Source: Hylemonella gracilis (GTDB lineage: Bacteria > Pseudomonadota > Gammaproteobacteria > Burkholderiales > Burkholderiaceae_C). Taken from it: a DNA stretch of 32,186 bases. Numbering within the stretch: the first letter of the stretch is position 1; each line of letters starts with the position of its first letter. The position numbers and the translations under genes are program-made. Under the pieces are notes generated by a model, which was not told the origin of the DNA, did no database searches, and was given only the letters and a program-made list of their open reading frames with translations. Shown piece after piece: positions 124-29,853 of the stretch. The DNA is taken from assembly GCA_945862195.1 (NCBI GenBank), contig CAMAXR010000008.1:1-32186 (forward strand), in the 5' to 3' direction.

Positions 124-618
124 TCAACTCAACCACTTTTTGAACGCCATTTGTGAAGGCGGCCCAATGAATCGTTGCAAGTGACCATTTTGGTCAATCA
201 GAACAACATAAGGGGTCACGTTGGGCCAATTCGGATCCACGCTTTCACGTATCGCGGGTTCATAACCATCAAATGCGTACATCAAGCTCAAGCCTTTGAA
301 GTGGTTGGCATGACGAAGGGCTTGCTTGCCCGAAACGTCCATCATGACCGCAGCCAATGGTATTTTTTTACCTGTCCGGGCAACTTCAGCTTGAATTTTA
401 GAAAATGCATCTGGGCATGTACTGCAATAGGAAGTCGTAAAGAGATAGGCGGCAGGTCTGGGGCCCGTCTGCAAAAGCATCTTCCACGTGTTTTCGTCAA
501 AAACCTGCACATTCAATTTGCTTTGCGGCGGGTGAACATGTTGTGCATAAGTGGACTGGAACCACAGCGCCCCTAGCGTTAGCGTCAGACCTACCCAGTG
601 CTTAAAAGCGAATTTCAT
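124..618 (-). CDS. Secreted thioredoxin-like protein with CxxC active site
   Basis: This 164-residue protein is probably periplasmic. An N-terminal signal peptide (about residues 1-25, ending STYA) precedes a mature start of QHVH. A thioredoxin fold is indicated by TTSYCSTCP with redox-type cysteines C65 and C68, and by VTPYVVLID, which supplies the usual cis-proline. Small proteins of this type often reduce or metallate partner proteins in the periplasm. The gene is last in a minus-strand run behind a beta-propeller protein and a TonB-dependent receptor, and its start overlaps the preceding gene by 17 bases, implying translational coupling. The mature N-terminus matches that of the neighbouring propeller protein, which hints at shared metal handling. 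The fold call is solid. The exact role (disulfide reductase, copper transfer or other) is inferred only from context. Confidence 0.8.
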   Translation of the reverse strand: MKFAFKHWVGLTLTLGALWFQSTYAQHVHPPQSKLNVQVFDENTWKMLLQTGPRPAAYLFTTSYCSTCPDAFSKIQAEVARTGKKIPLAAVMMDVSGKQALRHANHFKGLSLMYAFDGYEPAIRESVDPNWPNVTPYVVLIDQNGHLQRFIGPPSQMAFKKWLS

Positions 619-1837
619 GAATTTGAGCCCCTTCTGTATTGCGCCAAACCACTACCATGCGTTGGCCGTTTGCCACCAATCTAGGGTGGTCGTTGTAACC
701 TCTTAACTTACCTAATACCCGCATTGAAAAAGACTTTCCGCCGTCTCTGGAAATCCAAGCCATTAATGAGGTTTCTTGGTTTTGGTAACTCCGCCAAACA
801 ATAGCCACGTCTTGACCAATTGAGGCAACGTCTGCATGTTCGGCCTTGGGGTCAGGCAGCTCCCTCACAGTTGAAAGAATGGGTTTTCCAATCGAATCCA
901 AGCGCCCATAACGAACATTTGAAACGTCTGTGGCTCTTTCTTGACGCAAACCAAACCAAACCACATGGAAATTGTCTCCGCTGTCAACTTTGGCCAGCGC
1001 AAGACCTGGCCCATGATGTGGGCAAGCATTGATTTGCCATTCATCAAAGGTGGATCTTTGTATCTGATTGGGTACCCTGCTTGCAAGGTTTGCGAATGCA
1101 TGGTCACGCGTACTTTCGCCAAAAACATGTCGCCACATAGCCCGCAACTTACCGTCAGAACCTTGTGCCAGGGAGATTCGACAACATTCACATGAATGGT
1201 CTGCCACCTTGGTATCTGGACCAAAGGTTGCACCGCCATCTTTTGAGATCACTTGGTAAACAGCCGCACCTACGTAGGCTTTACCAGCGGTATGCAAGTC
1301 TCGTTTGTCTATCCAAACCACATGCAAATCACCGTAGGCATCAAACGCAATGGATTCAAAACGATGAGTGATGATTTGCCTGTCATGGTGCACGGTAAAA
1401 GGCACCGAAAAGCTGGCGCCCCCATCCGTACTCCGCACCATACGGATCCAGCCTGTATAAGGTTTCTCCAAAGGCCTTGTGTAACTGATGACCACTTGAC
1501 CATTTGGACCAAATGCAATTTTGGGTCTGTTTTCGCCATCCGCAGAAATGGCGTCGCCCTGCGTATCAAGTTTGCGCGGCGCGGACCAGGTGGACAAATC
1601 TGTACTTTGGGCAACAAACAGGTTCGACTGGGCATCCAGACCCACCATCCAAAGAGAGCCATCAGGCGCAAAGCTTGCGCCCGTGGCAAGCTGTGGGCGG
1701 GCGGGGCGCTGAAGTCCCCCGCCAGATACGGGTTTTTCATGCACATGTTGTGCCATGAGGCACGTGGCTTCCACCAGCATCAAAAAAGAACAGATCAGCA
1801 ATTTACATCGGCTCATGTCCGCCCCACTTTTAAACAT
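602..1837 (-). CDS. Secreted BNR/Asp-box beta-propeller protein (sialidase-like fold)
   Basis: This 411-residue protein has an N-terminal signal peptide ending near LMA, followed by QHVHEKP. Repeated Asp-box motifs (STDGGASF, SKDGGATF, SRDGGKSF) mark a sialidase-type six-bladed beta-propeller. Automatic annotation would say exo-alpha-sialidase, but I see no reason to expect sialic-acid chemistry. A cysteine cluster, HSCECCR, in the middle of the chain is a possible metal or redox site. The gene follows the TonB receptor by three bases and overlaps the thioredoxin-like gene downstream, so the three are probably co-transcribed. The start is uncertain: the longest frame starts at 1837, but an internal ATG at 1816 (MSRCKLL) gives a more typical signal peptide. 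Fold confidence is good and function is unknown, probably an accessory protein of the copper/TonB locus. Confidence 0.75.
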   Translation of the reverse strand: MFKSGADMSRCKLLICSFLMLVEATCLMAQHVHEKPVSGGGLQRPARPQLATGASFAPDGSLWMVGLDAQSNLFVAQSTDLSTWSAPRKLDTQGDAISADGENRPKIAFGPNGQVVISYTRPLEKPYTGWIRMVRSTDGGASFSVPFTVHHDRQIITHRFESIAFDAYGDLHVVWIDKRDLHTAGKAYVGAAVYQVISKDGGATFGPDTKVADHSCECCRISLAQGSDGKLRAMWRHVFGESTRDHAFANLASRVPNQIQRSTFDEWQINACPHHGPGLALAKVDSGDNFHVVWFGLRQERATDVSNVRYGRLDSIGKPILSTVRELPDPKAEHADVASIGQDVAIVWRSYQNQETSLMAWISRDGGKSFSMRVLGKLRGYNDHPRLVANGQRMVVVWRNTEGAQIHEIRF

Positions 1838-1840
1838 CTT

Positions 1841-3985
1841 TTATTTCCAAACCACATCCACACCTGCATACAAGCTCAACGGCAAGGCCGGTGAATAAAC
1901 AGGCGTATTAGAAGACACTGACGCACTGTCGGCATAGCGTTTGTCGGTCAAATTCATCACCCGCACGAACCCTTGAACGTCTTTAGAAAGGTCTTGGCTG
2001 AATCTCAAGTTAAAAATGTCATGCCCAGGGTATTTTCCGTAAGTGGCTGAGTTGGAGTCCTCAAGCCAATACTCACCCAAGCTGATCCACTCAAGCTGGG
2101 CCATGGTGCCGTTTTTAGGCTTCCATGTGAGCCGTGTGTTGCCGATAAACCTTGGTGCCGTGGCCATTTCGTTACCTGAGTAGGTGGCGTTTGTACTGCC
2201 CGAAACCACCCAATCGACATATTTGTGTACCGCATAGGCCATTGCAGTGTCCACCCGCCACTGACGGTTAAAGGCTTTGCCCAAGGCCAATTCAATACCG
2301 GAGTGTTCAGTTTGACCCGCATTGACCGTGGTGTTCACGTTGGTTGTAAGGTCTTTTTGACTTACCAAATCATCACGCTTGACCAATTGGTACATCGCCA
2401 CGTCATAGGCCCACCCATTGCTCATGCCTCGCCATCCAAACTCCAGTTGTTGCGCCTTGATGGGTTTAAGAGCCAAGGCGAGCTGTGCTTTGGTCAAAGC
2501 AGTGCTAGATGATGTGACCGAACCTGCACGAAACAGTTGGCTTTCTGAGGGTGCCCTGAACCCATAATTGAATGAGGAATACAAGGTGTCAGTTGAGTTC
2601 AAAGCATAAGTGGCCGCCAGCTTGGGACTCAAACTGGTGTAGTTCATGTTGGCAGACTGAACTTGTCCGTAATATCGTGTGGACATTTGGGTGGTTGCTG
2701 ACGCGTTGTTGGTCATGTCGAAAGTCATGCTGTCAAAACGTGCTCCTGCCGTTAAACGAAATTTGTCCGCTGGAGTCCACTCCCCTTGTGCGTAAGGAGA
2801 AATGCTTTGGTAGATCACGTTGTAGTCGTAAATTTTGGCCCCTGTTGCGTAACTCTTATATGAAGTTGCTCCGCTGGTGGTAGTGGTTGTGGTCAACGAC
2901 AAGCCGTTTTCAGACCTTCTCCCTGGGCTACGGTCTATGTCAAGCCCCACTATCAGCCGTGGCTTGTAAGGACCTTCGTAGTCTTTTCTCCATTTGGCCA
3001 TCACACCCAAAGAAAACACATTGGTGACTTCATTGCGCGGGTCACTTGATAGGTTGTAAGAACCGTTCAAATCCATATAGTTGCTGCGCAAGTAAGGGGT
3101 GATACTCAGCAAGGTGTTATCGGTCTCCTTTTCATATTGAGTAGACAGACGCAGCGCCTCTACCTTTCGCCAAGCCACAGAGAAGTAGTTGTATGTGGGG
3201 TTATTGATGTAGTCCTGATAGCGCAGAGCTGAATTGGCCCCCGTTTGTTGGTCAATTTTGGTGTAGCCCAAAATGGTTTTAATCAAAGCCCCTTGACCCA
3301 GATCTTTGTCTTGCCTGAAGTTCACACTTTGGCGGTCATAAGCAGTTTTATCTCTCCAGCCATCTGTGTGGGTCAAATTGGCGCCGATCCTGACAGCTCC
3401 GTTAGCCACACCAGTGGTCCCGTCTAACAAAACGCGTCTCCAGCCAAAAGTTCCAGCCTCGCCCGTTAAAGATACGCTTGGGGTTGAGAACGGCACTCTT
3501 GACAAGATATTCACAATACCTGCGATGGCATCCGAACCGTACAAAGCAGGGCCTGGGCCTTTGAGCACTTCAATACCCCCTGCTTGAGGAATGTTGGTTT
3601 CGTAAAGAGCGTTGTGGTTAAAGAACCCTGTGGCACGCGTCGGAACACCGTCTTCCAAAAACAAATAAACAGGGTTGGTATTGAAGGGTTGCCGTATGGC
3701 GGTGGAGTGACCTTCCCCATTGGTAACGGCAACTGCAGCCCCGGGCACTTGGCTGATGATCTGTTGAGGGTGCATAGGACCCGTGGTGCGAATGGCACTT
3801 TCAGTGATGATGCCTACAGAGGCGGAGGACTGCATCAGCTGTGTTTGCTCTCGGCTGCCCGTCACTGTCACAGCATCTAGAAAAGACGGCTCCTTGTCCG
3901 AGGGTGGCGAGATGTTTTGCGCCCATAGTGGAAAAACGAAAGGGGCGGCCAATGACATGGCCCTAATAAGTTTGGTGGTTTGCAT
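1841..3985 (-). CDS. TonB-dependent outer-membrane receptor
   Basis: The protein has 714 residues, normal for the family. In order it shows a signal peptide (about 1-22, ending PLWA), a TonB-box-like stretch (DAVTVTGS), a plug domain with the conserved VYLFLEDGVPTR and GGIEVLKGPGPALYGSDAIAG motifs, and a long beta-barrel with alternating aromatic strands and a final LYAGVDVVWK. Such receptors take up metal chelates, cobalamin or other ligands across the outer membrane using TonB energy. The partners (DUF2946-like protein, secreted propeller, thioredoxin-like protein and a divergent PCuAC copper chaperone) point to copper or a copper chelate, but the barrel itself does not prove the ligand. 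The last residue is Lys rather than the usual terminal aromatic, a small oddity. Upstream, GTGAG serves as a modest ribosome-binding site. Confidence 0.9.
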   Translation of the reverse strand: MQTTKLIRAMSLAAPFVFPLWAQNISPPSDKEPSFLDAVTVTGSREQTQLMQSSASVGIITESAIRTTGPMHPQQIISQVPGAAVAVTNGEGHSTAIRQPFNTNPVYLFLEDGVPTRATGFFNHNALYETNIPQAGGIEVLKGPGPALYGSDAIAGIVNILSRVPFSTPSVSLTGEAGTFGWRRVLLDGTTGVANGAVRIGANLTHTDGWRDKTAYDRQSVNFRQDKDLGQGALIKTILGYTKIDQQTGANSALRYQDYINNPTYNYFSVAWRKVEALRLSTQYEKETDNTLLSITPYLRSNYMDLNGSYNLSSDPRNEVTNVFSLGVMAKWRKDYEGPYKPRLIVGLDIDRSPGRRSENGLSLTTTTTTSGATSYKSYATGAKIYDYNVIYQSISPYAQGEWTPADKFRLTAGARFDSMTFDMTNNASATTQMSTRYYGQVQSANMNYTSLSPKLAATYALNSTDTLYSSFNYGFRAPSESQLFRAGSVTSSSTALTKAQLALALKPIKAQQLEFGWRGMSNGWAYDVAMYQLVKRDDLVSQKDLTTNVNTTVNAGQTEHSGIELALGKAFNRQWRVDTAMAYAVHKYVDWVVSGSTNATYSGNEMATAPRFIGNTRLTWKPKNGTMAQLEWISLGEYWLEDSNSATYGKYPGHDIFNLRFSQDLSKDVQGFVRVMNLTDKRYADSASVSSNTPVYSPALPLSLYAGVDVVWK

Positions 3986-4059: not shown

Positions 4060-4416
4060 TTAGGAGAACGCAGGGGGGCCGCGTGGCGGCAGGGGAGATA
4101 AAGTCCAACCTGCAATGGTTGCAGAGGGAATGCTTTTGAGGGCGTATGCCAACGGGCTGGGTGGCTCAGCTTTGAAAGCCAACTCACATGGCGGCGCGCT
4201 TGGTGTGGTGCACAGTGGGCAATCGAGTTTTTGGACTGTGGATTTACCGTCCGCATCGTCGCCGGTCTGAACCAGCTTCATCACCCCAGCGCCGGAACAC
4301 ACCAAATCCATAGATTGCGGTTTGAAAATAGGCGAAGCCACCGCAATGCCCACGCTCAGCACAAACCACACCAGCCACAAGCGGGGTAAAAGTTTTATGC
4401 TGCGAAGTTTGTGCAT
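4060..4416 (-). CDS. DUF2946-like small membrane/secreted protein
   Basis: This 118-residue protein has one hydrophobic N-terminal segment (about 11-28, LWLVWFVLSVGIAVA), probably a signal peptide or anchor. A central KLDCPLCTTP matches the DCP-x-C signature I associate with DUF2946. That family is often found beside TonB-dependent copper receptors and other copper genes, so the protein is probably an envelope copper-binding or accessory factor. The C-terminal third is proline-rich (PLPPRGPPAFS). It is the first gene of the minus-strand run, lies 74 bases upstream of the TonB receptor start, and diverges from the PCuAC gene. The longest frame is used as start. The family call rests on the CPLC motif and context, with no alignment run. 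Confidence 0.7.
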   Translation of the reverse strand: MHKLRSIKLLPRLWLVWFVLSVGIAVASPIFKPQSMDLVCSGAGVMKLVQTGDDADGKSTVQKLDCPLCTTPSAPPCELAFKAEPPSPLAYALKSIPSATIAGWTLSPLPPRGPPAFS

Positions 4417-4529: not shown

Positions 4530-5063
4530 ATGACCACACCCAAATCACATGCCCTCAAAACCTACTGTTTCAGTCTGGTAGCGCTCACCACTTTGGCCCT
4601 TACAGCCTTCAGCCACGCCCAAACCACCAACATCGATGTCAAAGACGCATGGGTGCGCACCAGTGTTCAGGGGCAAAAAGCCACGGGTGCTTTTATGAAC
4701 ATCACCGCCAAAGACGACGCCAAGCTCGTGGGCGCGTCTTCTCCCGTCGCGGGCCTGGGTGAGGTTCACGAGATGAAGATGGAAGGCGACGTGATGAAAA
4801 TGCGCGCCATACCCGCCCTAGACCTGCCCGCAGGCAAAACCGTGGCGCTCAAACCCGGCGGTTTTCATGTGATGCTGATGGACCTGAAAACCCCACTCAA
4901 AAAAGACAGCACCATTCCGCTCACCTTGCGGTTTAAAGATGCCCAGGGCAAAGAGTCCACCCTAAACTTGCAGGTGAATGTGAGCACTCAGGCCCCTGGC
5001 GCCTCTTCTTCAGGTAGCATGCCCGGCCATATGCAAAATGCCCCCATGGGACATAAACATTAA
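4530..5063 (+). CDS. Periplasmic copper chaperone of the PCuAC family
   Basis: From the ATG at 4530 the protein has 177 residues. A signal peptide ends at about SHAQ. The mature domain carries an exact H-x10-M-x21-H-x-M copper(I) site, running from EVHEM through MRAIP to GFHVML, the hallmark of PCuAC. The tail (MPGHMQNAPMGHKH) is rich in Met and His and could bind further copper. PCuAC proteins deliver Cu(I) to the CuA or CuB site of cytochrome oxidase or to Sco-type partners in the periplasm. The ORF track begins at a TTG at 4443, but the ATG gives a proper signal peptide, so I use it. No strong Shine-Dalgarno sequence precedes it. The gene diverges from the DUF2946-TonB operon and lies 26 bases before the FAH-family gene, with which it may or may not be co-transcribed. 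Confidence 0.92.
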   Translation: MTTPKSHALKTYCFSLVALTTLALTAFSHAQTTNIDVKDAWVRTSVQGQKATGAFMNITAKDDAKLVGASSPVAGLGEVHEMKMEGDVMKMRAIPALDLPAGKTVALKPGGFHVMLMDLKTPLKKDSTIPLTLRFKDAQGKESTLNLQVNVSTQAPGASSSGSMPGHMQNAPMGHKH

Positions 5064-5089: not shown

Positions 5090-5971
5090 ATGAAAATTGC
5101 ACGCGTTGAAGCCGCCGGCCAAATTTCCCCCGCTTTGGTGGACGAAGCCCAACAAAAAGTGGCCCTGCTAGGCGGCTACTTGGCGGATCACCCCAACCCA
5201 GTGCTGCAGGTCATCCAGCACGGCATTACCGAGGCCCAACTGCTCGAGCAAGTGCGCGGCCATGCAGCCATGTCTGAGGTGAAGTTTTTGTCGCCCCTGT
5301 CGGCCTTTTTGCGCAACCCTTTTGCGGTGGGAAAAAACTACCATGAGCATGCGGTGGAGTTTGACAAAAGCGGCTTTAACGCCACTTCGGGCGCGGCATC
5401 GGCCATTCCCACCCACCCGCAAATTTTCACCAAAGCCACCACCACCCTCAATGGACCTACCGACCCCATTCGCTTCAACCCCAAGCACACCCAGTCTGTA
5501 GATTACGAGGGCGAAATTGGTGTGGTCATCGGCACCACCTGCCGCAACGTGAGCAAAGCCGACGCCATGAAACAGGTATGGGGATTTGTGGCCCTGAACG
5601 ACGTGACCGCCCGCGACCTCCAAAAAAACCATGCTCAGTGGTTTTTGGGTAAATCGCTTGACGGCTTTTGCCCGCTTGGCCCTTGGATCACCACCTCCGA
5701 CGAAGCCCCCACTGATATGCACATGCAAGTGTGGGTCAATGGCGAACAACGCCAAAAAGCTCATATTTCGCAGCTGATTTTTGATGTGCCTACCCTCATT
5801 GAAACCATGACCGCAGCCATGACGCTGCTGCCGGGCGACATCATTGCCACCGGCACCTCGGTGGGCGTGGGCGTGGGCTTTAACCCACCCAAGTTTTTGC
5901 GCCATGGCGACGTGGTTCGTGTGGCCATTTCGGGCTTGGGCGAGCTCCAAAACCCCATTGAGGAAATTTAA
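5090..5971 (+). CDS. Fumarylacetoacetate hydrolase (FAH) family protein
   Basis: This 293-residue protein fits the usual size of the bacterial FAH family. Characteristic stretches appear in order: VGKNYHEHAVEF, a metal-binding region VDYEGEIGVVIG, FVALNDVTARDLQ, FLGKSLDGFCPLGPWI and LLPGDIIATGTSVGVG. Members are Mg/Mn-dependent and cleave or isomerise oxo-acids such as acylpyruvates or 2-hydroxyhepta-2,4-diene-1,7-dioate in aromatic breakdown. The substrate cannot be fixed from sequence. At 293 residues it is longer than the fumarylpyruvate hydrolases I recall, so it is not an obvious gentisate-pathway NagK partner. GGAG about 6 bases upstream serves as ribosome-binding site. The stop lies one base before the next ATG, giving a tight operon with two Bug proteins and a ModA-like protein. 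Confidence 0.88.
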   Translation: MKIARVEAAGQISPALVDEAQQKVALLGGYLADHPNPVLQVIQHGITEAQLLEQVRGHAAMSEVKFLSPLSAFLRNPFAVGKNYHEHAVEFDKSGFNATSGAASAIPTHPQIFTKATTTLNGPTDPIRFNPKHTQSVDYEGEIGVVIGTTCRNVSKADAMKQVWGFVALNDVTARDLQKNHAQWFLGKSLDGFCPLGPWITTSDEAPTDMHMQVWVNGEQRQKAHISQLIFDVPTLIETMTAAMTLLPGDIIATGTSVGVGVGFNPPKFLRHGDVVRVAISGLGELQNPIEEI

Positions 5972-5972
5972 G

Positions 5973-6971
5973 ATGACAAACCGTACCCTATTCCAAGCTG
6001 CGCTTTATGGTGCGGCCGTATTGGTGGGCGCCTTAAGCCCATGGCTGGCCACCCCCGCGCTGGCCGAAGACGATTACCCTGCACGCGCCATCACCATGGT
6101 GGTGCCGTTTCCGCCTGGTGGCGTAGCCGACACCGTGGGCCGCCCTGTGGCCGAAGCCATGGGTCGCGCCCTGAAGCAAACCCTGGTGGTGGAAAACAAA
6201 GGCGGCGCCGGTGGCGGCATTGGCATGGCGCAAGTGGCCAAAGCCCGTGGCGACGGCTACAACGTGCTGATGTCGCTTTCCTCGATTGTGGTGCTGCCCG
6301 AGGCCGACAAAGTGCTCAAGCGCTCGCCCTTGTTCACACTGGACCAGCTCAAGCCCATTGCCCGCTTTACCGCCGACCCCACCGCCTTGGTGGTGCGTGC
6401 CGACAGCCCTTGGAAAACCTACGCCGACTTCATTGCCTTGGCCAAAGCACGGCCCGGGGCCGTGACCTTTGGCTCCAGCGGCAACTACGGCACCATGCAT
6501 GTGCCTATGGAACAGCTCAAGGCCGCCACCGGCACTTACATGCTGCACGTGCCCTACACCGGTGCGGGTCCAGCTGTGTTGGCCCTGCTGGCCGGTCAAA
6601 TTGACGCCGTGGCCACCGGCCCTTCTAGCGTGATGCAACACGTGCGTGCTGGCAAGCTGCGCATCTTGGCGCACTGGGGCGATGCACGCTTGGCCGCCAT
6701 TCCTGAAGTGCCCAGTTTTAAAGAGCTGGGCGTGCCGATTCAGTATTCGCAATGGTCGGGCCTGTTTGTACCGGCTTCCACCCCTGAACCTGTGGTGGCC
6801 AAGCTGCGCCAAGCCGCACGAGCCGCAGCTCAAGACGAGCGTGCCCGCAACGCCTTGGTGGCTGCAGGCACCAGCTTTCAGTACCTGGACGCTCCAGAAT
6901 TTGAACGCTTTGTGCAAACCGATGCCCGCCAAATGATCGGCTTGGTGCAGCGCATTGGTCGTCTTGAATAA
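5973..6971 (+). CDS. Bug/TctC-type tripartite tricarboxylate transporter binding protein 1
   Basis: Starting at the ATG at 5973, one base after the FAH stop, the protein has 332 residues. A Sec signal peptide (to about TPALA) leads into YPARAITMVVPFPPGGVADTVGRP, the typical Bug N-terminal beta-strand and ligand loop. KGGAGGGIGMAQVAKARGDGY and the later HVPYTGAGPAVLALLAGQID are also family hallmarks. Bug proteins trap a carboxylate ligand in the periplasm. The membrane partners TctA and TctB are absent here, as in many Burkholderiales Bug loci. The ORF track start (5844) runs back into the FAH gene and is rejected. Position right behind the FAH gene suggests that the ligand is a substrate or precursor for that enzyme, but the ligand is unknown. 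Confidence 0.93.
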   Translation: MTNRTLFQAALYGAAVLVGALSPWLATPALAEDDYPARAITMVVPFPPGGVADTVGRPVAEAMGRALKQTLVVENKGGAGGGIGMAQVAKARGDGYNVLMSLSSIVVLPEADKVLKRSPLFTLDQLKPIARFTADPTALVVRADSPWKTYADFIALAKARPGAVTFGSSGNYGTMHVPMEQLKAATGTYMLHVPYTGAGPAVLALLAGQIDAVATGPSSVMQHVRAGKLRILAHWGDARLAAIPEVPSFKELGVPIQYSQWSGLFVPASTPEPVVAKLRQAARAAAQDERARNALVAAGTSFQYLDAPEFERFVQTDARQMIGLVQRIGRLE

Positions 6972-7021
6972 CGCAATTTCATACCACCAGCACCTTATAA
7001 CGACACCCAAGGAGACAACCC

Positions 7022-8056
7022 ATGAAAACGCTTCAACTGCTTAAAACCAACTTTATACAAACTGGCTTGCTGTGCGCCAGTACCCTGTTGCTCAGTGGCG
7101 TGCTGCATACCGCCGCAGCTCAAACCGCAGCCAGCGCCCCTCAAGCCGGCGCGGCCCAAGGCTACCCCAACCGTCCGGTCAAAATTGTGGTGCCCTTTGC
7201 GGCCAGCGGCCCGGCCGACATTTATGCCCGCTTTATTGCCCAGCGTTTGGGCGACGAACTCAAGCAAACCTTTGTGGTGGAAAACAAGCCCGGTGCGGGC
7301 TCCATCATTGGCACCGACTTTGCCGCCAAATCGCCCGCCGATGGCTACACGCTGTTGATGATGTCCAACACCCAAACCATCAACGAGTCGCTCACGCCCA
7401 ACAAGCCCTTTGCCCTCATGCGCGACTTTGTGGCGGTGTCGCCCATCAATTCTTCAGACTTGATGTTGGTGGTGCACCCCTCTGTGCCGGCCAAAACCGT
7501 GGGCGAGCTGATTGCCTTGGCCAAAACCAAACCCGGAAAAATCAACTACGCTTCTTCCGGTAACGGCACGCCCTACCACATGGCAGGCGAGTTGTTTAAA
7601 TACTTGGCTGGTGTGGACATGACGCACATTCCCTACAAAGGCAGTGCTGCCGCCCGCACCGACGTGGTGGGCGGTCAGGTAGACGTGATGATTGACGCCG
7701 TGACCACCATGACCGAGTTTTCGCGCGATGGCCGCGTGCGTGGTTTGGCCACCACAGGTCGCAAGCGCTCCACGGTCATGCCCGACATGCCCACCGTGGC
7801 CGAGGCCGGTTTGCCCAAGTACGAAATGAGCATTTGGCTGGGCATCATGGCCCCCAAAGGCACCCCCGCCCCCATCGTGGCACGCCTGAATGAAGAAATT
7901 CGCAAAATTTTGAGCCGCCCCGAAGTGCGTGACGCTTGGGCCAAGCAAGGCGCGTTTCCCATGATCATGTCCACCAACGAGTTCACCCAGTTTTTGGATG
8001 CCGACATTGCCCAGTGGGCCACCGTGGTGAAAGTGTCTGGCGCCAAGCCCGACTGA
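7022..8056 (+). CDS. Bug/TctC-type binding protein 2
   Basis: The protein has 344 residues with a long signal peptide (to about TAAAQ) and an Ala-rich linker before YPNRPVKIVVPFAASGPADIYAR. Family features include KPGAGSIIGTDFAAKSPADGY, HIPYKGSAAARTDVVGGQVD and GLPKYEMSIWLGIMAPKGTP. AAGGAGAC eight bases upstream is a strong ribosome-binding site. It follows the first Bug gene by 50 bases and overlaps the next gene by one base (TGATG). It is clearly different in sequence from its upstream neighbour, so the pair looks like two specificities rather than a recent tandem duplication. The ligand is unknown, and presence in the same operon as the FAH-family enzyme suggests a carboxylic acid. Confidence 0.93.
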   Translation: MKTLQLLKTNFIQTGLLCASTLLLSGVLHTAAAQTAASAPQAGAAQGYPNRPVKIVVPFAASGPADIYARFIAQRLGDELKQTFVVENKPGAGSIIGTDFAAKSPADGYTLLMMSNTQTINESLTPNKPFALMRDFVAVSPINSSDLMLVVHPSVPAKTVGELIALAKTKPGKINYASSGNGTPYHMAGELFKYLAGVDMTHIPYKGSAAARTDVVGGQVDVMIDAVTTMTEFSRDGRVRGLATTGRKRSTVMPDMPTVAEAGLPKYEMSIWLGIMAPKGTPAPIVARLNEEIRKILSRPEVRDAWAKQGAFPMIMSTNEFTQFLDADIAQWATVVKVSGAKPD

Positions 8057-13300: not shown

Positions 13301-13558
13301 ATGAGGGTGATCAGTTTTTCAGAAGCCAGGAATCAATTCAAACAAGTCATTGACCAAGTGGTCGAAGATTGTGATGTTGCAGTAATTTGCAGACGAGACG
13401 CAGAAGATGCAGTTCTGATGTCGCTGGACACCTACAACAGCATGATGGAGACCTTTCATTTGGTCAAAACACCGGCCAATTTGAAGCACCTCGAAAAATC
13501 CTTAGCGCAGTACCGCAAGGGACAAACCAAAACCAAGGATTTGGTGGATGCACCGTAG
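13301..13558 (+). CDS. yefM: YefM/Phd-family antitoxin
   Basis: This 85-residue protein has the YefM/Phd N-terminal DNA-binding and dimerisation fold. Signature stretches are MRVISFSEARNQFKQVIDQVVED, VAVICRRDAEDAVLMSLDTYNSMMET and a C-terminal toxin-binding tail. It neutralises the YoeB-type mRNA interferase encoded next and represses the shared promoter. The two genes overlap by 11 bases, as in typical YefM-YoeB operons. The module is inserted between the HD-GYP gene and the convergent tgt gene. Confidence 0.93.
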   Translation: MRVISFSEARNQFKQVIDQVVEDCDVAVICRRDAEDAVLMSLDTYNSMMETFHLVKTPANLKHLEKSLAQYRKGQTKTKDLVDAP

Positions 13559-13811
13559 GCTGACCTGGACGCATGCGGCTTGGTCAGATTACCTTTACTG
13601 GCAAGGTCAAGACAAAAAAACACTCAAGCGCATCCATTTGTTGATTCAAGATGCCATGCGAAACCCTAATACAAGCATTGGCAAGCCCGAAGCACTGCGA
13701 GAAAACCTGTCGGGGTTATGGTCTAGGCGAATTGATGATGAGCATCGCTTGGTATATGCCATTGAACCAGACCAGTTGGTCATCATTGCGTGCCGCTACC
13801 ACTATGAATAG
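13548..13811 (+). CDS. yoeB: YoeB-family ribosome-dependent mRNA interferase toxin
   Basis: The 87-residue protein aligns by eye over its full length with E. coli YoeB: WSDYLYWQGQDKKTLKRIHLLI, IGKPEALRENLSGLWSRRI, DEHRLVYAIE and the ending ACRYHYE. The catalytic set (Glu of GKPE, Arg of HRLVYA, and C-terminal His-Tyr) is intact, so the toxin is expected to be active. It carries one extra C-terminal Glu after the Tyr at which E. coli YoeB ends. YoeB binds the ribosomal A site and cleaves translated mRNA. The gene stops 6 bases before the stop of convergent tgt. Confidence 0.95.
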   Translation: MHRRLTWTHAAWSDYLYWQGQDKKTLKRIHLLIQDAMRNPNTSIGKPEALRENLSGLWSRRIDDEHRLVYAIEPDQLVIIACRYHYE

Positions 13812-19183: not shown

Positions 19184-20236
19184 TTACTGCGACACGTTGA
19201 GCTTGGCATCCCGAATGACCTTGCCCCACTTGTCGTGCTCGTTGCGAACCAACACGCCCAGTTCTTCGGGGGTGCTTGCAGACAGTTCCACCGCTTGATC
19301 TGCCAGTTTTTTGATGAGTTCTGGATCTTTTAAGACCTTGGTCATTTCAGCATTCAAGCGGGCAATGACCGCAGGTGGCGTGCCTGCGGCTGCCAGCAGG
19401 CCCATCCAAGCGCCGGAGTCGAGCTGCGGATAACCTGCTTCGGCCATGGTGGGCACACCTGGCAAAGCTGAAGAGCGACGCTTGCCACTGATGGCCAAGG
19501 GTTTGATTTTTCCTGCCTGCACCAAAGGCACACCGGCGCCCGCCGCAAACACTATCAGCTGCACCTGCTCACCCATAAGCGCTGTGAGTGCTGGAGCGCC
19601 ACCTTTAAAGGGAACGTGCAGCATGTCAAAGTTGGCGAGCAGCTTGAGCTGTTCTGCCGCCAAATGTCCCGAGCTACCCGCGCCTACGGATGCGTAAGAA
19701 ACCGTTCCCGGTTTGCTTTTGGCCAGGTTGATAAATGCGGCAATGTCATTGGCTGGGTAGCCTGCGTGGGTGGCAAGCAGCAAGGGGATGCTGCCAATAA
19801 ACGTAATGGGCGCCAAATCTTTAAAGGTGTCGTATCTCAGCTCTGTTTTGTATATATGTGGGTTGACCGCATGCGAGTCAAAGGCTACCAATAGGGTATG
19901 GCCATCTGGTGGGGCTTTGGCCACGTAGTCAGCAGCCAAGGTGCCGCCCGCGCCGCTTCGGTTTTCAATCACCACCGGTTGGCCCAGCAGCTCCGAAAGC
20001 TTGGGGCCAATTTGACGAGCGGTCGCATCCACCACGCCACCGGGCGCAAATGGAACCACCAAGCGAATGGTCTTGCTTGGAAATGTTTGGGCAGCAAGTC
20101 CGCTGGCAAGGGTCAGCGCCGACACTGCAGCCATAAAAGGAATGGCCCACTTTTTTGAAATGAAAGTATTCAAAGTTTTTCTCAGTGATAGATGTAACTG
20201 GTGATGTTCGCCCCAAGGCGATGTAGCGCACATCAT
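19184..20236 (-). CDS. Bug/TctC-type binding protein 3
   Basis: The longest frame is 350 residues. Bug hallmarks are FPSKTIRLVVPFAPGGVVDATARQIG, RSGAGGTLAADYVAKAPPDGH, HVPFKGGAPALTALMGEQVQ and MLHVPF. The N-terminal 21 residues before LNTFISKKWAIPFMAAVSALTLASGLAA do not look like part of a signal peptide. A TTG at 20173 behind GAGAAA would give a cleaner Sec signal and is a good alternative start. The gene diverges from the molybdenum hydroxylase operon across a 227-base gap and converges on the crotonase gene. Its ligand is probably a carboxylic acid linked to this catabolic cluster, though this cannot be shown from sequence. Confidence 0.9.
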   Translation of the reverse strand: MMCATSPWGEHHQLHLSLRKTLNTFISKKWAIPFMAAVSALTLASGLAAQTFPSKTIRLVVPFAPGGVVDATARQIGPKLSELLGQPVVIENRSGAGGTLAADYVAKAPPDGHTLLVAFDSHAVNPHIYKTELRYDTFKDLAPITFIGSIPLLLATHAGYPANDIAAFINLAKSKPGTVSYASVGAGSSGHLAAEQLKLLANFDMLHVPFKGGAPALTALMGEQVQLIVFAAGAGVPLVQAGKIKPLAISGKRRSSALPGVPTMAEAGYPQLDSGAWMGLLAAAGTPPAVIARLNAEMTKVLKDPELIKKLADQAVELSASTPEELGVLVRNEHDKWGKVIRDAKLNVSQ

Positions 20237-23114: not shown

Positions 23115-23891
23115 ATGACGGTTCTTTCAGACTACTGCGACAAATACTCTTCTGTTCGCATGCGGCGCGAAGAAGGCATCTTGGAAATGCAGTTTCATAC
23201 AGAGGGAGGGCCGTTACGTTGGAGCAAGAGGGCTCATGAAGACCTGGAGTGTGCTTTTTTGGATGCGGGCCGGGATCGTGGCAATGAAGTCATCATTATT
23301 ACGGGCACAGGTAACGAATACTCTGGGCCCGCTGTTCAGCCCAGTGGTCAGGGTGGCCACCACAACCCTCGAAAACCCGTCACGGCAGAGGAGTGGGATC
23401 AACTGTGGTACTGGGAAGGCAAGCACCTTTTAATGAATTTGCTAAATATTGAAGTGCCTGTCATTACAGCAATGAATGGGCCAGCATCGCGTCACGCTGA
23501 AATTCCTCTCTTGAGCGACATTGTGCTGGCTTCAGATACGGCGACTATTCAGGACTCTGCACACTTCAATGGCGGGCTTGTACCCGGCGATGGTGTTCAT
23601 GTGGTGTTCCCTCTTTTAATGGGCACAAACCGTGGAAGGTATTTTTTATTGACTGGGCAAGTATTGAGTGCACGTGAGGCACTTGATTTAGGCTTGGTCA
23701 ATGAGGTTATGCCTCTTGAAAAGCTTTTGCCTAGAGCTTGGGAGTTGGCGCGCCAATTGAAACAAAGACCCCCTCTCTTAAGACGCTACACACGCGTTAT
23801 GCTCACTCAAGACTTAAAGCGCCGAATGCACGACCTGCTGGGCTATGGGCTGGCACTTGAAGGTCTGGCTGCTGTTCAAAAGGTTGACTAA
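23115..23891 (+). CDS. Crotonase-fold beta-diketone hydrolase, 6-oxocamphor hydrolase-like
   Basis: This 258-residue crotonase-fold protein has a strong AAGGAGA ribosome-binding site. It matches by eye what I recall of Rhodococcus 6-oxocamphor hydrolase: [66 protein letters not shown] and [13 protein letters not shown]. The active-site set of that enzyme (W40, H122, H145, D154, E244) corresponds to W36, H127, H150, D159 and E249 here, the last four at a constant +5 offset. That enzyme cleaves a C-C bond of a cyclic beta-diketone by retro-Claisen hydrolysis and needs no CoA. The enoyl-CoA hydratase glutamate pair is not in place. It lies 42 bases behind the Mo-hydroxylase and 22 before a Bug gene, so it is probably in one operon with both. 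The substrate is unknown. Confidence 0.82.
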
Positions 23892-23913
23892 ACACACATT
23901 AAAGGAGATATCT

Positions 23914-24906
23914 ATGCAGTACATACCTAAGTTATCGCGCCGTGAGTTTTCGGTTGCCGCAGGTCTGGCGTTAAGTGGGAGCTTTGCCTTTGGTCAGGCA
24001 TCAAACTTTCCTAACAAGCCCGTTAATTTGGTAGTTCCATTTCCCCCTGGAGGGGCAGTAGACCAGGCGGGTCGCGCCATAGCCCAAGCGCTGTTCAAGG
24101 TTTGGAAGCAACCTGTGGTGATTTCGACCAAGGCTGGAGCTGGTGGTGCGGTTGGCATGTCAACTGTTGCCAATGCGCCTGCTGATGGCTATACGCTACT
24201 AGCCACCCACCCATCAATCATTGCTGTTCCTGAAGCGGAGCGCCTCTTTGGCCGCACACCTGCTGTGGACAGGACCCACTTTACCCCTTTAGCCTTGCTT
24301 GTGGCAGATCCTCTGGTGCTTGTGGTGAAAGCGGATTCACCTTGGAAAACGTATGAGGACTTTGTCGCCGATGCTAAAAGGCGCCCGGACAGTATTGCTT
24401 ACTCATCTTCAGGCGCCTACAGTGCGGTCCATCTTCCTATCGAAATGTTGACCCATGCGGCCTCCATTAAATTGAGGCACATTCCCTATGCAGGCGGCGG
24501 CCCAGCGCTTACTGCCGTTCTCAGCGGAGTGGTTGCTGCCACCGCTGGCGCTCCTGCTGTGTTGGCTCCACAAATTAAGGCCGGCGAGCTTCGTGCACTG
24601 GTCACCACAGGAATAAAGCGCCATAACCTGTTGCCTGAAACTCCTACGGCCATAGAACTCGGCTTTAAGGATGTAGAGTTTTATTTGTGGGTGGGTCTGT
24701 TTGCCTCGGCCAAGACTGAGGAAGCCATGGCACAAGCCATTCGGCGTGATATTGGTCGTGCCGTCCAAGAACCAGAGTTCGTGCAGCTTATGAACAAACT
24801 CGGCGCACCTGTTGACTATCGTGATGGTCCCGCATTTGTATCTTTTTTGAATAACGACGAGGATCGAATCAAAGCGGCCATCAAGAGGATTGGCAAGGTT
24901 GATTGA
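23914..24906 (+). CDS. Bug/TctC-type binding protein 4 with a Tat-like signal
   Basis: The ATG at 23914 follows AAAGGAGAT and opens a 330-residue protein; the track start at 23845 overlaps the hydrolase gene. The leader LSRREFSVAAGLALSGSFAFG contains a twin-arginine-like S-R-R-x-F motif, suggesting Tat export, whereas the other Bug proteins in the window have Sec-type leaders. The mature part has FPNKPVNLVVPFPPGGAVDQAGR, AGAGGAVGMSTVANAPADGY and HIPYAGGGPALTAVLSGVV. The middle (VLVVKADSPWKTYEDFVADAKRRP) resembles Bug protein 1 of the 5.97 kb operon. As last gene behind the Mo-hydroxylase and beta-diketone hydrolase it probably binds the acid linked to that pathway. Confidence 0.92.
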   Translation: MQYIPKLSRREFSVAAGLALSGSFAFGQASNFPNKPVNLVVPFPPGGAVDQAGRAIAQALFKVWKQPVVISTKAGAGGAVGMSTVANAPADGYTLLATHPSIIAVPEAERLFGRTPAVDRTHFTPLALLVADPLVLVVKADSPWKTYEDFVADAKRRPDSIAYSSSGAYSAVHLPIEMLTHAASIKLRHIPYAGGGPALTAVLSGVVAATAGAPAVLAPQIKAGELRALVTTGIKRHNLLPETPTAIELGFKDVEFYLWVGLFASAKTEEAMAQAIRRDIGRAVQEPEFVQLMNKLGAPVDYRDGPAFVSFLNNDEDRIKAAIKRIGKVD

Positions 24907-24912
24907 ATTAGA

Positions 24913-25791
24913 TTAAGCCGCCATTAGGCGCGCTTCGGATGTGTCGTTGATGGTGACGCGCCGCAATTCACGGCGTTCGGAGATGTCATACCTGCGCCCC
25001 CTGTGCAGCGTGCTTCGGTTGTCCCAAATCACCAAATCTCCCACCTGCCATTCGTGCGAATACACAAATGGCTTTTGGGTGGCGTGCTCCAACAAATCCA
25101 GCAAAAACATTCGGCCCTCAGCCGTTGGCCATCCCACGATTTGTCTTGCATGCACGCCCACAAAGAGCACCTTACGACCAGAGCCTGGGTGGGTATCAGA
25201 CAGGGGCCAGACCGCAGGAGGAATGGCCTTTTTTTGGTCGTCTGTGTAGGCATCATCGCCCAAAAGCAATCGGGTGTGCAGCGCAAAATGCTCGGCGTAT
25301 AAATTTTGAATTTCAGCTTGAGTCTGCTCTGGAAGTGCATCGAATGCAGCACGAAGGTCTGCAAACTCCGTACAGCCGCCCCAACTGGGCAGCACCACAG
25401 CGTGCAACATCGAGTAAGCAGCCCGCGGATTCATAAAGGAGCTGTCGCTGTGCCAGAGTTGGTTGGCAAAGTTAGATAGGTTTTTGGGTGAGTCTCTTTG
25501 GGCAACTTGACCTTGAGCATCCACATTAGATATGTCGATCAACCGCTCATCCTCTAGCCGTTCTTTCCTTTTAAAAACGCGCTTGAGCCCAATGTCAAGC
25601 GGGCCAAAAGTTGATGCGAAATCAAGTTGCTGCTGCGCGGTTAAAGGTTGACCTTTCCAAACCAATACAGCGTATTGGTTCATGGCAGCATTGATTTGTT
25701 TTAAATCATGCTCTGCCAAGGGCTGCGTGAGGTCTATGCCGCTGGCCTCAGCGACAAACAAGGGATGAAGAGGTTTGAGTTGTAGGGTCAT
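24913..25791 (-). CDS. TfdA-like Fe(II)/2-oxoglutarate-dependent dioxygenase
   Basis: The protein has 292 residues. The iron ligands H114 and D116 (LWHSDSSF) and H263 (TLHRGRRYD) are present, with R274 for the 2-oxoglutarate carboxylate in RRELRRVTI. These positions are within one residue of those in 2,4-D dioxygenase TfdA of Cupriavidus. Stretches such as LADISNV/LIDISNV, NFANQLWHSDSSF, LLEHATQ and WDNR-LHRGRRYDIS-RRELRR match TfdA closely as I recall it. The TfdA group oxidises aryloxyacetates and, more weakly, cinnamates. No chlorocatechol or phenol genes are in the window. It is the last gene of a minus-strand LysR-Bug-Bug-TfdA run, 16 bases behind a Bug gene. It may act on a natural aryl-oxy or aryl-alkenoic acid. 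Confidence 0.9.
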   Translation of the reverse strand: MTLQLKPLHPLFVAEASGIDLTQPLAEHDLKQINAAMNQYAVLVWKGQPLTAQQQLDFASTFGPLDIGLKRVFKRKERLEDERLIDISNVDAQGQVAQRDSPKNLSNFANQLWHSDSSFMNPRAAYSMLHAVVLPSWGGCTEFADLRAAFDALPEQTQAEIQNLYAEHFALHTRLLLGDDAYTDDQKKAIPPAVWPLSDTHPGSGRKVLFVGVHARQIVGWPTAEGRMFLLDLLEHATQKPFVYSHEWQVGDLVIWDNRSTLHRGRRYDISERRELRRVTINDTSEARLMAA

Positions 25792-25807
25792 GTGGGGCGC
25801 TCAGGTG

Positions 25808-26785
25808 TTATTCGAGTTCGATTTTGGCGTCAGTGATCACACGTTTCCACTTCCTGATCTCTGATTGGATGAAATCGTCAAACTGCTCGGGTCGACTGGC
25901 AATAACCTCCATGCCCAAGTCCTCGATTCGTTTTTTGACTTCTGGGTTGGCCAAAACACGCGCCGTATCTGACTGAATTTTTTGAACGATAGGGCGTGGT
26001 GTGCCACTGGGAATCACAAACCCAACCAAGGCGCTCACGTTAAATCCAGGAATCACTTCTGCAACCGTAGGAAAATTAGGATGTCCAGTGACACGCTGCG
26101 GCCCCATGGTGGCAATCATTTTCATGCGGCCGGACTTGACGTAAGGCAATATGGAAAGAAACGGGTCCACGACCAAATCAATTCTTCCACCCATCAATTC
26201 TGTGTGGGCTTGAGCGCTTCCCTTCATGGGTGCGTGTAAGACTTCAAAGCCTGCTTCACGTTGCATCAGTTCCATGCCCAAATGCGTTGAACCTCCTACC
26301 CCTGGGGTACCGTAGGTCAACTTGCCGGGGTTCTTTTTAGCGTAGGCAATCAGTTCCGGCAGGGTATTGAACGGGGCATCGGGTTTGGCCACCAGTGCCA
26401 ATTGAAGGTTGGCAATATGCGTGACGCCTGACAGGTCTTTGGTAGTGTCATAGGGCAAGCTTTTGCGAAGTGATGGGTTGACTGGAAATGACGAGTTCAC
26501 CATGCCTATCGTGTAGCCATCCGGGTTGGACTTGGCTACAAAGTCTGCGCCTATGGCTGTGCCCGCACCAGGTTTGTAATCAAGCAGTACGGGCTGATTC
26601 CAAGCTTCCTGAAGCTTGATGCCAATGAGCCGCCCCACGGTGTCGGTGGGTCCGCCCGGTGGAAAGGGCACGATCAATTTCACCGCAGCTTTAGGAAAGT
26701 CTTGGGCAGAAGCTGGAAGCAACCCAGCCGGAGCCAAGCAACTTACAACCAAGGCAAGGACGAATGATTTGTAGGGATGTGTCAT
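25808..26785 (-). CDS. Bug/TctC-type binding protein 5
   Basis: The 325-residue protein has a Sec leader ending LLPASAQ, followed by FPKAAVKLIVPFPPGGPTDTVGRLIG. Other family parts are KPGAGTAIGADFVAKSNPDGY, THLGMELMQREAGFEVLHAPMKGSAQAHTELMGGRID and FVIPSGTPRPIVQKIQ. It lies between another Bug gene (24 bases upstream) and the TfdA-like gene (16 bases downstream) on the same strand. The likely role is capture of the carboxylate that feeds the dioxygenase, which is an inference from operon position. No TctA/TctB membrane component is present. Confidence 0.92.
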   Translation of the reverse strand: MTHPYKSFVLALVVSCLAPAGLLPASAQDFPKAAVKLIVPFPPGGPTDTVGRLIGIKLQEAWNQPVLLDYKPGAGTAIGADFVAKSNPDGYTIGMVNSSFPVNPSLRKSLPYDTTKDLSGVTHIANLQLALVAKPDAPFNTLPELIAYAKKNPGKLTYGTPGVGGSTHLGMELMQREAGFEVLHAPMKGSAQAHTELMGGRIDLVVDPFLSILPYVKSGRMKMIATMGPQRVTGHPNFPTVAEVIPGFNVSALVGFVIPSGTPRPIVQKIQSDTARVLANPEVKKRIEDLGMEVIASRPEQFDDFIQSEIRKWKRVITDAKIELE

Positions 26786-26809
26786 GTGTATGGGTAGTTA
26801 AGGGGTTGA

Positions 26810-27793
26810 TCAATCCATCGAAATATTGGCACGTTTACCCAATGCAGAAAACATGTCGATTTCTCGAGCCATTCTGGCCGTGATTTCTGCGGGACCTTCA
26901 AACACTGGCGTGACGCCCTGCGCAACCAATTGCGCCTGCAACTCTGGATCTTTCATGGCTTGCTCAATGAGTACTGCCAACCTGTTGACGATTTGAGGTG
27001 GTGTTTTGGGTGGCATGGAGATTCCCACCCAAGTTGCCAACACTGAACCCGGCTTGTTTTCTGCAAGCGTTGGAACATTGGGCAACTGGGGCGAACGCAC
27101 AGCGCCTGTCACGGCCAAGGCCTTGAGTGATCCAGCCTTGACCTGAGCAACCGTGGAGCTGAGCCCGGGTACCGACAAAGTGACTTGGCCACCCATCAAA
27201 TCCGTCATGGCGGGCCCTGAGCCTCTGTAAGGCACATGCACCCAATCAACGCCAAAGGCTTCCTTGACCAGCTCAGCGCTGAGATGTGAGGCGGAGCCCG
27301 TTCCGGCAGAGGCGTAGTTGAATTTTCCGGGCGCTGCGCGAGAGGCTGCCAGCAGGTCCTGCAAACTGTTGAATGGGGACTTGCCGTTCACCACAATCAC
27401 AAAGGGCAGGACCCCAAAGGTTGCCACATGGCTAAAACCTGCCACTCCGTCAAACATGGGTTTTGCAGTCAGTGCTGCACTCACCGACATAGCACCGTTG
27501 CTCAACAACACGGTATAGCCATCTGCAGCCGCACGCGAAACCTCTGCCGCACCCACCGCACCGCCCGCACCGGCGCGCGTTTCAACCACAAAGCTTTGAC
27601 CAGAAAGAGTGGTCAGTCGGGTTGCCAGCAAGCGGGCAGGCCCGTCAAAGCTACCCCCTGGCGGAAATGGGACCACCAGCTTGACGGTTTTTTCCGGGTA
27701 TTCGGCTGCAGCTGGCAACACCCCATAAGCCAGCAGTGAGGTAACGGCGATTAGCAGCCACCTGCATGACCGTGATGATTTGGTTTTAAACAT
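26810..27793 (-). CDS. Bug/TctC-type binding protein 6
   Basis: The 327-residue protein has a Sec leader to about PAAAE and then YPEKTVKLVVPFPPGGSFDGPARLLA. RAGAGGAVGAAEVSRAAADGY, HVPYRGSGPAMTDLMGGQVTL and WVGISMPPKTPPQIV are family hallmarks. The ribosome-binding site AGGAGA overlaps the TAG stop of the LysR gene just upstream, so the two are probably translated from one message. It differs clearly from the next Bug gene, so the tandem pair may serve two ligands or a ligand and an inducer. Confidence 0.92.
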   Translation of the reverse strand: MFKTKSSRSCRWLLIAVTSLLAYGVLPAAAEYPEKTVKLVVPFPPGGSFDGPARLLATRLTTLSGQSFVVETRAGAGGAVGAAEVSRAAADGYTVLLSNGAMSVSAALTAKPMFDGVAGFSHVATFGVLPFVIVVNGKSPFNSLQDLLAASRAAPGKFNYASAGTGSASHLSAELVKEAFGVDWVHVPYRGSGPAMTDLMGGQVTLSVPGLSSTVAQVKAGSLKALAVTGAVRSPQLPNVPTLAENKPGSVLATWVGISMPPKTPPQIVNRLAVLIEQAMKDPELQAQLVAQGVTPVFEGPAEITARMAREIDMFSALGKRANISMD

Positions 27794-28827: not shown

Positions 28828-29853
28828 ATGAAACCATCCATAGGCTCACCACGCTTTTTTACTTCTGCCACCAAGCGGCTGCTACAGGCCAGCTTGGTGG
28901 CCCTAACCGCCACCGCGGGCTTGATGGCGGGATCTTCGAGTGCCCAAACCTATCCCACCAAACCCATCAATCTGGTGGTGCCTTTTGCCGCCGGAGGGCC
29001 AACCGATGTGGTTGCCCGCACCTTGGCAGCCTCTATGACCAAGGTGCTCGGTCAAAGCGTTGTGGTGGAAAACAAACTGGGCGCTGGCGGCACCATTGCT
29101 GCGTCTTATGTTGCAAAGTCTCAGCCAGACGGTTACACCTTTTTCATTCACCACAATGGAATGGCCACCTCACCCGCGCTTTACCGCAAGCTCAGCTTTA
29201 ACCCCCTCACAGACTTTGAATATGTAGGTCAAGCCGTCGACGTTCCCATGACGCTGATTGCGCGCAAAGACATGCCTGCAAACAACATGGCGGAGCTCAT
29301 CACTTATGTAAAGGCCAACTCCACCAAAATCAACTTGGCCAATGCCGGTCTGGGTGCGGTGTCTCATCTCTGCGGCATGCTGTTGCAACAAGCTTTGGGT
29401 GTGGATCTGACCACAGTCCCTTTCTCTGGCACTGCACCCGCCATGAATGCGCTTTTAGGCGGCCAAGTCGACTTACTTTGCGACCAGACCACCAACACTG
29501 TGCCTCAAATCAAAGCAGGCACCGTCAAATCTTATGGCGTCACCACCAAGCAGCGTATCAAAGCCCTGCCTGACCAGCCCACCCTTAGTGAAGGCGGCCT
29601 CAAAGACTTTGAAGTCGTAGTCTGGCATGGTGTGTATGCACCTAAAGGTACCCCACCAGCCGTCATTGAGAAGTTTGGCGCTGCCTTGCGCGCTGGCATG
29701 AAAGACCCTAACTTTGCAAGCCGCATGGCAGACCTCGGTGCTGAAATGACCCCTGACTCCAAGCAGACCCCCGAAGGCTTGCGTGTTTGGCTGAACTCCG
29801 AAGTCAACAAGTGGGGCCCCATCATCCGCAAAGCGGGTGTTTACGCTGATTGA
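28828..29853 (+). CDS. Bug/TctC-type binding protein 7
   Basis: The 341-residue protein has a Sec leader to about SSSAQ, followed by YPTKPINLVVPFAAGGPTDVVART. Further hallmarks are KLGAGGTIAASYVAKSQPDGY, TTVPFSGTAPAMNALLGGQVDLLCDQTTN and VWHGVYAPKGTPPAVIEKFG. AAGGAAG precedes the ATG. It is transcribed alone on the plus strand, divergent from the LysR gene, and is the most likely direct LysR target. The DQTTN stretch is shared with Bug proteins that I recall as a distinct subgroup, but the ligand is unknown. Confidence 0.93.
   Translation: MKPSIGSPRFFTSATKRLLQASLVALTATAGLMAGSSSAQTYPTKPINLVVPFAAGGPTDVVARTLAASMTKVLGQSVVVENKLGAGGTIAASYVAKSQPDGYTFFIHHNGMATSPALYRKLSFNPLTDFEYVGQAVDVPMTLIARKDMPANNMAELITYVKANSTKINLANAGLGAVSHLCGMLLQQALGVDLTTVPFSGTAPAMNALLGGQVDLLCDQTTNTVPQIKAGTVKSYGVTTKQRIKALPDQPTLSEGGLKDFEVVVWHGVYAPKGTPPAVIEKFGAALRAGMKDPNFASRMADLGAEMTPDSKQTPEGLRVWLNSEVNKWGPIIRKAGVYAD

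Follow-up and report, generated by a model that had tools for sequence, protein, structure and literature searches.

A conserved gene pair for an exported beta-propeller protein and a thioredoxin-like protein beside copper-related genes of Hylemonella gracilis

The DNA analyzed here is a stretch of 32,186 nucleotides from Hylemonella gracilis (contig CAMAXR010000008.1 of assembly GCA_945862195.1), referred to below as the window. Four of its genes follow one another on the minus strand in the order DUF2946 protein, TonB-dependent receptor, exported beta-propeller protein and thioredoxin-like protein, and a PCuAC gene is transcribed divergently from them (Table 1). The DUF2946 gene stands first in the operon, on the strand of the receptor gene and 74 bp before it. 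Between the receptor gene and the propeller gene that comes after it there is a gap of 3 bp, and the propeller gene runs a few bases into the thioredoxin-like gene that follows. The PCuAC motif given in Table 1 was counted by hand on the sequence.

Table 1. Positions of genes and motifs at the window locus
Feature	Position	Strand	Evidence
Thioredoxin-like exported protein, 164 aa	124..618	-	ORF; weak Pfam Thioredoxin_8 match, 13 bits, below cut-off
CSTC (C65-x-x-C68), candidate redox-active motif	415..426	-	CxxC conserved in the thioredoxin-like family
QHVH, residues 26-29 of the thioredoxin-like protein, after predicted cleavage	532..543	-	sequence
Exported beta-propeller protein, 411 aa	602..1837	-	BNR repeat below cut-off; AF2 model; lectin/sialidase fold matches
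QHVH, residues 30-33 of the propeller protein, after predicted cleavage	1739..1750	-	sequence
CECC (C216, C218, C219), propeller core	1181..1192	-	each of the three Cys in 90/90
CPHH (C272, H274, H275), propeller core	1013..1024	-	C272 in 89/90, H274 in 85/90, H275 in 84/90
TonB-dependent outer membrane receptor	1841..3985	-	Pfam PF00593, 129 bits; PF07715, 46 bits
DUF2946 protein, CruR-like copper-responsive leader (CPLC ... RGPP)	4060..4416	-	PF11162, 24.8 bits (cut-off 23.7)
PCuAC copper chaperone, divergently transcribed	4530..5063	+	PF04314, 127.8 bits; H-x10-M-x21-H-x-M motif

An earlier note on this DNA spoke of copper-related neighbours, and these are real, namely the CruR-like DUF2946 leader and the PCuAC gene near the pair. 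According to PMC9426467, proteins of the CruR family (DUF2946) carry a CXXC and a C-terminal RAPP arrest motif, CruR leaders regulate TonB copper importers, and in Bordetella pertussis CruR controls a TonB receptor gene by copper-dependent termination. In the window protein the CXXC is CPLC (residues 66–69) and is followed 42 residues later by RGPP, which differs by one change of Ala to Gly from the RAPP described at about 45 residues. The window resembles the cruR-crtA(bfrG)-crpH operon of B. pertussis (PMC9426467, PMC12914433, PMC13038864) in having a DUF2946 CXXC leader, then a TonB-dependent receptor with a periplasm-facing partner gene, and a link to copper. The two differ in that the window leader has RGPP instead of RAPP and that its receptor is partnered by a propeller together with a thioredoxin-like protein, where B. 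pertussis has a PepSY_TM protein. Moreover, the window receptor matches CrtA only over the plug region (PDB 9rvq/9rvx, 51 bits, residues 28–232), and orthology with CrtA was rejected; its nearest solved structure is PqqU/YncD, with 78.6 bits along almost the full length. The operon type of CruR leader plus TonB receptor is already known, while for the propeller/thioredoxin-like pair no description was found in the literature searched. In the same literature, whose coverage leaves out many subscription journals, neither a propeller nor a sialidase was mentioned for copper operons, and no family model applied in the analysis names the two-gene module.

The pair itself is conserved well beyond the window. 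In genome samples drawn at four ranks, which overlap one another, a propeller homologue turned up in 18 of 301 genomes (family), 63 of 399 (order), 22 of 369 (class) and 16 of 399 (phylum); a separate scan of genome contigs gave three homologues only. In all but a few loci the thioredoxin-like gene comes immediately 3' of the propeller gene and is read in the same direction. Among the order loci listed for the partner gene, L109 and L114 alone are without a thioredoxin-like match, and most loci outside the order also have the gene behind the propeller gene. At one locus (L024:3300-3820) the junction of the two genes looks disrupted: the first part of the thioredoxin domain stands in the propeller frame and recurs in another frame.

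The CxxC is present in 76 of 77 thioredoxin-like domains, and none of the thioredoxin family profiles is reached above its cut-off (Thioredoxin_8, 13–18 bits; AhpC-TSA, 19–20 bits). Periplasmic thioredoxins reduce the cysteines of the CuA site ahead of metal insertion, as reported in PMC13038864. With the TlpA/ScoI/PCuAC route to the CuA site of cytochrome oxidase the window shares a CxxC thioredoxin-like protein and a PCuAC protein in one copper neighbourhood; unlike in that route, the CxxC protein adjoins a Cys/His propeller, has no Sco or CoxB neighbour, and attains the cut-off of none of the Pfam thioredoxin families it matches.

The deeply conserved candidate metal site of the propeller protein lies in its core. 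The four cysteines of CECC and CPHH are invariant in 57 Burkholderiales propellers, where H158, H237, H246, H274, H275, H291 and H334 occur in 53–57. In the alignment of 90 propellers the cysteines remain invariant or nearly so (Table 1), and the histidines rank as H291 (88), H274 (85), H275 (84), H246 (79), H334 (77), H158 (75) and H237 (68). If the protein binds metal, the site should be sought in this core, and the near-invariant CECC...CPHH is a stronger candidate for it than the N-terminus. The four invariant cysteines could also form two structural disulfides, which is the simplest way for the metal-site idea to fail. In many distant propellers of the class and phylum loci L199–L231 the core opens with an additional Cys pair (C...LxCA), which the window protein lacks.

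The AF2 model of the propeller protein, built from four sequences, is a beta-propeller (pLDDT 78, pTM 0.80), whose best fold matches in the PDB are among Photorhabdus lectins, sialidases and an ulvan lyase at 9–14% identity. Like the BNR/Asp-box propellers (sialidases of GH33, PLL/PHL lectins), the protein has a predicted propeller fold with Asp-box-like SxDGGxxF repeats; unlike them it contains the invariant CECC and CPHH, and it reaches no family cut-off. To our knowledge neither motif occurs in sialidases of GH33 or in PLL/PHL lectins. A function as sialidase (GH33) was rejected: BNR scored 20.5 bits against a cut-off of 27, and the PDB sialidases appeared only at E 0.02–1 as generic fold matches.

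We read the two genes as a conserved periplasmic copper-handling pair in a copper-acquisition operon, a reading for which, with the mechanism set out further below, confidence and doubt weigh about the same. The main rival, which we consider rather unlikely, makes the propeller an enzyme acting on an imported copper chelate, for instance by Cu(II) reduction or ligand cleavage; its active site would be the Cys/His centre, and its electrons would come from the thioredoxin-like protein. Besides the possible metal ligands the propeller does conserve further polar residues (D177, R179, D180, R236, R244 and D245), glycosidases and a lyase are among its fold relatives, and CrtA-type receptors import chelated copper (PMC12914433); however, the likeness in fold is generic to propellers, none of the homologues has an established activity, and no substrate is established either.

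The N-termini of the two proteins were what had first drawn attention. The earlier note had claimed that both neighbouring secreted proteins would start with Gln-His-Val-His once the signal peptide is removed, and AQHVH does stand behind a plausible signal peptide in each. The thioredoxin-like ORF reads MKFAFKHWVGLTLTLGALWFQSTYA up to the predicted cleavage after T-Y-A and then QHVHPP, and the propeller ORF reads LMLVEATCLMA up to that after L-M-A and then QHVHEK; both positions were placed by eye with the -3/-1 rule instead of a trained signal-peptide predictor. A lipoprotein reading of the signal-peptide Cys of the propeller (VEATC) was rejected, as a lipobox is missing and homologues do not keep the Cys. 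A pattern search of the genome (1.94 Mb, 84% complete), with the hits read in frame, gave 59 codon matches to AQHxH, and a credible signal peptide precedes the motif only in the thioredoxin-like and propeller ORFs; four further sites passing the filter look like non-coding frames. As controls we used 203 signal-peptide-like ORFs from sampled regions of the present genome and of one related genome, of which none has QHxH at +1 and one has QH. The adjacent QHVH pair exceeds chance for arbitrary exported proteins, and such a start is unusual against random ones. The two AQHVH sites are coded with 13 of 15 bases in common (GCACAACATGTGCAT and GCACAACATGTTCAC), a match that the identical peptide alone could explain. 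Gln at the N-terminus tends to turn into cyclic pyroglutamate, and the free amine needed by the proposed QHVH metal site would then be blocked.

For the 90 propellers the tail was taken to begin where the hydrophobic stretch ends. It contains H-x(0,2)-H in 58 of them and only a Met pair in 8 more. A comparable motif is found in 9 of the 203 control ORFs, which gives the family a more than tenfold excess of His pairs; the contrast is approximate, since the controls were taken at a fixed 25 residues and the family tails vary in length. The exact AQHxH is present in only 7 of the 90, with drifting position, and H31 and H33 are conserved in 19 and 15 of them. Across Proteobacteria, His-rich forms such as QHAGH, QEHGHG and QMSHHHH recur. 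For the 56 order-level tails, cut by a simple cleavage rule that misplaces a few sites including that of the window's own propeller, we counted a Q start in 25, a QH start in 12, exact QHxH in 4, any His in 45 and H-x(1,2)-H in 36. One subclade has Met instead of His (ADMPGMPPMG, ADGMPGMAK), which weakly favours copper over zinc for the propeller tail. At loci L106, L109 and L111–L114, MPGM or GMPGMAK takes the place of the His motifs. The model gives residues 21–45 a pLDDT below 50, and the tail is probably disordered. Judged from these tails, a His- or Met-rich start is a habit of the propeller family that does not extend to QHVH at positions 2 and 4; the only coincidence requiring explanation is therefore the QHVH of the thioredoxin-like protein.

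A second rival, which sees the tails as neutral linkers of low complexity and ascribes the common QHVH to coincidence or to local sequence transfer between adjacent genes, has in our view a small share of the probability. It agrees with the strong drift of the tails in length, position and sequence, with their Ala/Pro/Gly-rich surroundings and with the near-identical coding of the two sites, but it does not account well for the excess of His pairs over the control ORFs or for the subclade in which MPGM replaces His, as a copper ligand might.

The copper genes near the pair bear on a third rival, namely that the pair handles another metal or aids the folding of another protein and that its closeness to copper genes has other causes. 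PCuAC is found near the propeller gene in the window and at L023, L030, L031, L032, L035, L037 and L038, and DUF2946 in the window and at L023, L027 and L030; BLAST of the loci found neither near many other propeller genes. Next to the pair there is a TonB receptor in the window, as there is in five of the six other loci scanned with Pfam. This rival gains from the propeller genes that have no PCuAC and DUF2946 beside them and from a window receptor nearer to PqqU than to the known copper receptor CrtA, yet a CruR-like leader heads the window operon and PCuAC recurs in several loci, and we think it quite unlikely. At L023, two DUF2946 homologues (1696-2373 and 3111-3491) flank the PCuAC gene, ahead of a TonB receptor.

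The earlier note had further suggested that a shared QHVH could mark the proteins of one metal-transfer chain, and homologues of both proteins were checked for A-QHxH at the cleavage site. Among 55 non-redundant thioredoxin-like partners the exact form is the window's own only. A His pair in the tail occurs in two of them, the window protein and its closest relative, that of L132 (QPSANTSAHAHHGTNHKAG), which is 64% identical to it in the domain and whose locus has His in the tails of both proteins. In this comparison the pair is absent from the thioredoxin-like tails of L023, L027, L028, L030 and the remaining loci. At L023, whose propeller is 69% identical to that of the window, both proteins lack QHVH: the propeller has QQAAAPAATGMSGHASHG and the thioredoxin-like protein QSGASK. 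With the His pair in only two of 55 partners, the QHVH of the thioredoxin-like protein is, on these tails, a recent lineage-specific gain and no family tag, and it does not mark the pair. The earlier note had named homologues without the histidines as one refuting finding. This applies to the thioredoxin-like protein and to positions 2 and 4, whereas the propeller tail stays generally His-rich. A copper tag common to two proteins of one chain is very unlikely and as a general marker largely refuted, since the two credible cases in adjacent genes of this genome and the relative at L132 stand against the counts for partners and propellers and against L023. The QHVH coincidence is in itself of little importance.

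We return to the copper-handling pair. The analysis shows its synteny, the conservation of its residues, a predicted propeller fold and the tail counts, and from these we infer copper binding, a redox partnership and a direction of transfer. Under copper shortage the operon would be expressed, and the TonB-dependent receptor would bring in copper or a copper chelate. The propeller may then hold the copper by its core centre of C216, C218, C219 and C272 with several near-invariant His, its cysteines being kept reduced by the thioredoxin-like protein, and would deliver it to PCuAC and to oxidase assembly. QHVH at the N-terminus of the propeller would be one example of the variable His- or Met-rich tail, an auxiliary and fast-evolving ligand that may aid copper capture or shuttling. 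In its wider form the proposal is more tentative: a widespread, undescribed periplasmic copper module, in which a propeller with a Cys4/His-rich centre and a disordered antenna of His/Met is served by its own thioredoxin-like reductase, may carry copper from the TonB receptor to the chaperones of oxidase assembly. The movement of copper through the periplasm past the outer-membrane receptor is a poorly known step. The two-gene module, which occurs across Proteobacteria and combines four near-invariant cysteines with a constant thioredoxin-like partner, would be a concrete and easily tested candidate for it.

Elsewhere in the window, seven ORFs within the 32 kb (5844-8056, 19184-20236, 23845-27793 and 28828-29853) resemble, judged by eye, solute-binding proteins of the Bug/TctC type, and two short overlapping ORFs at 13301-13811 resemble, likewise by eye, a toxin-antitoxin pair of the YefM/YoeB type.
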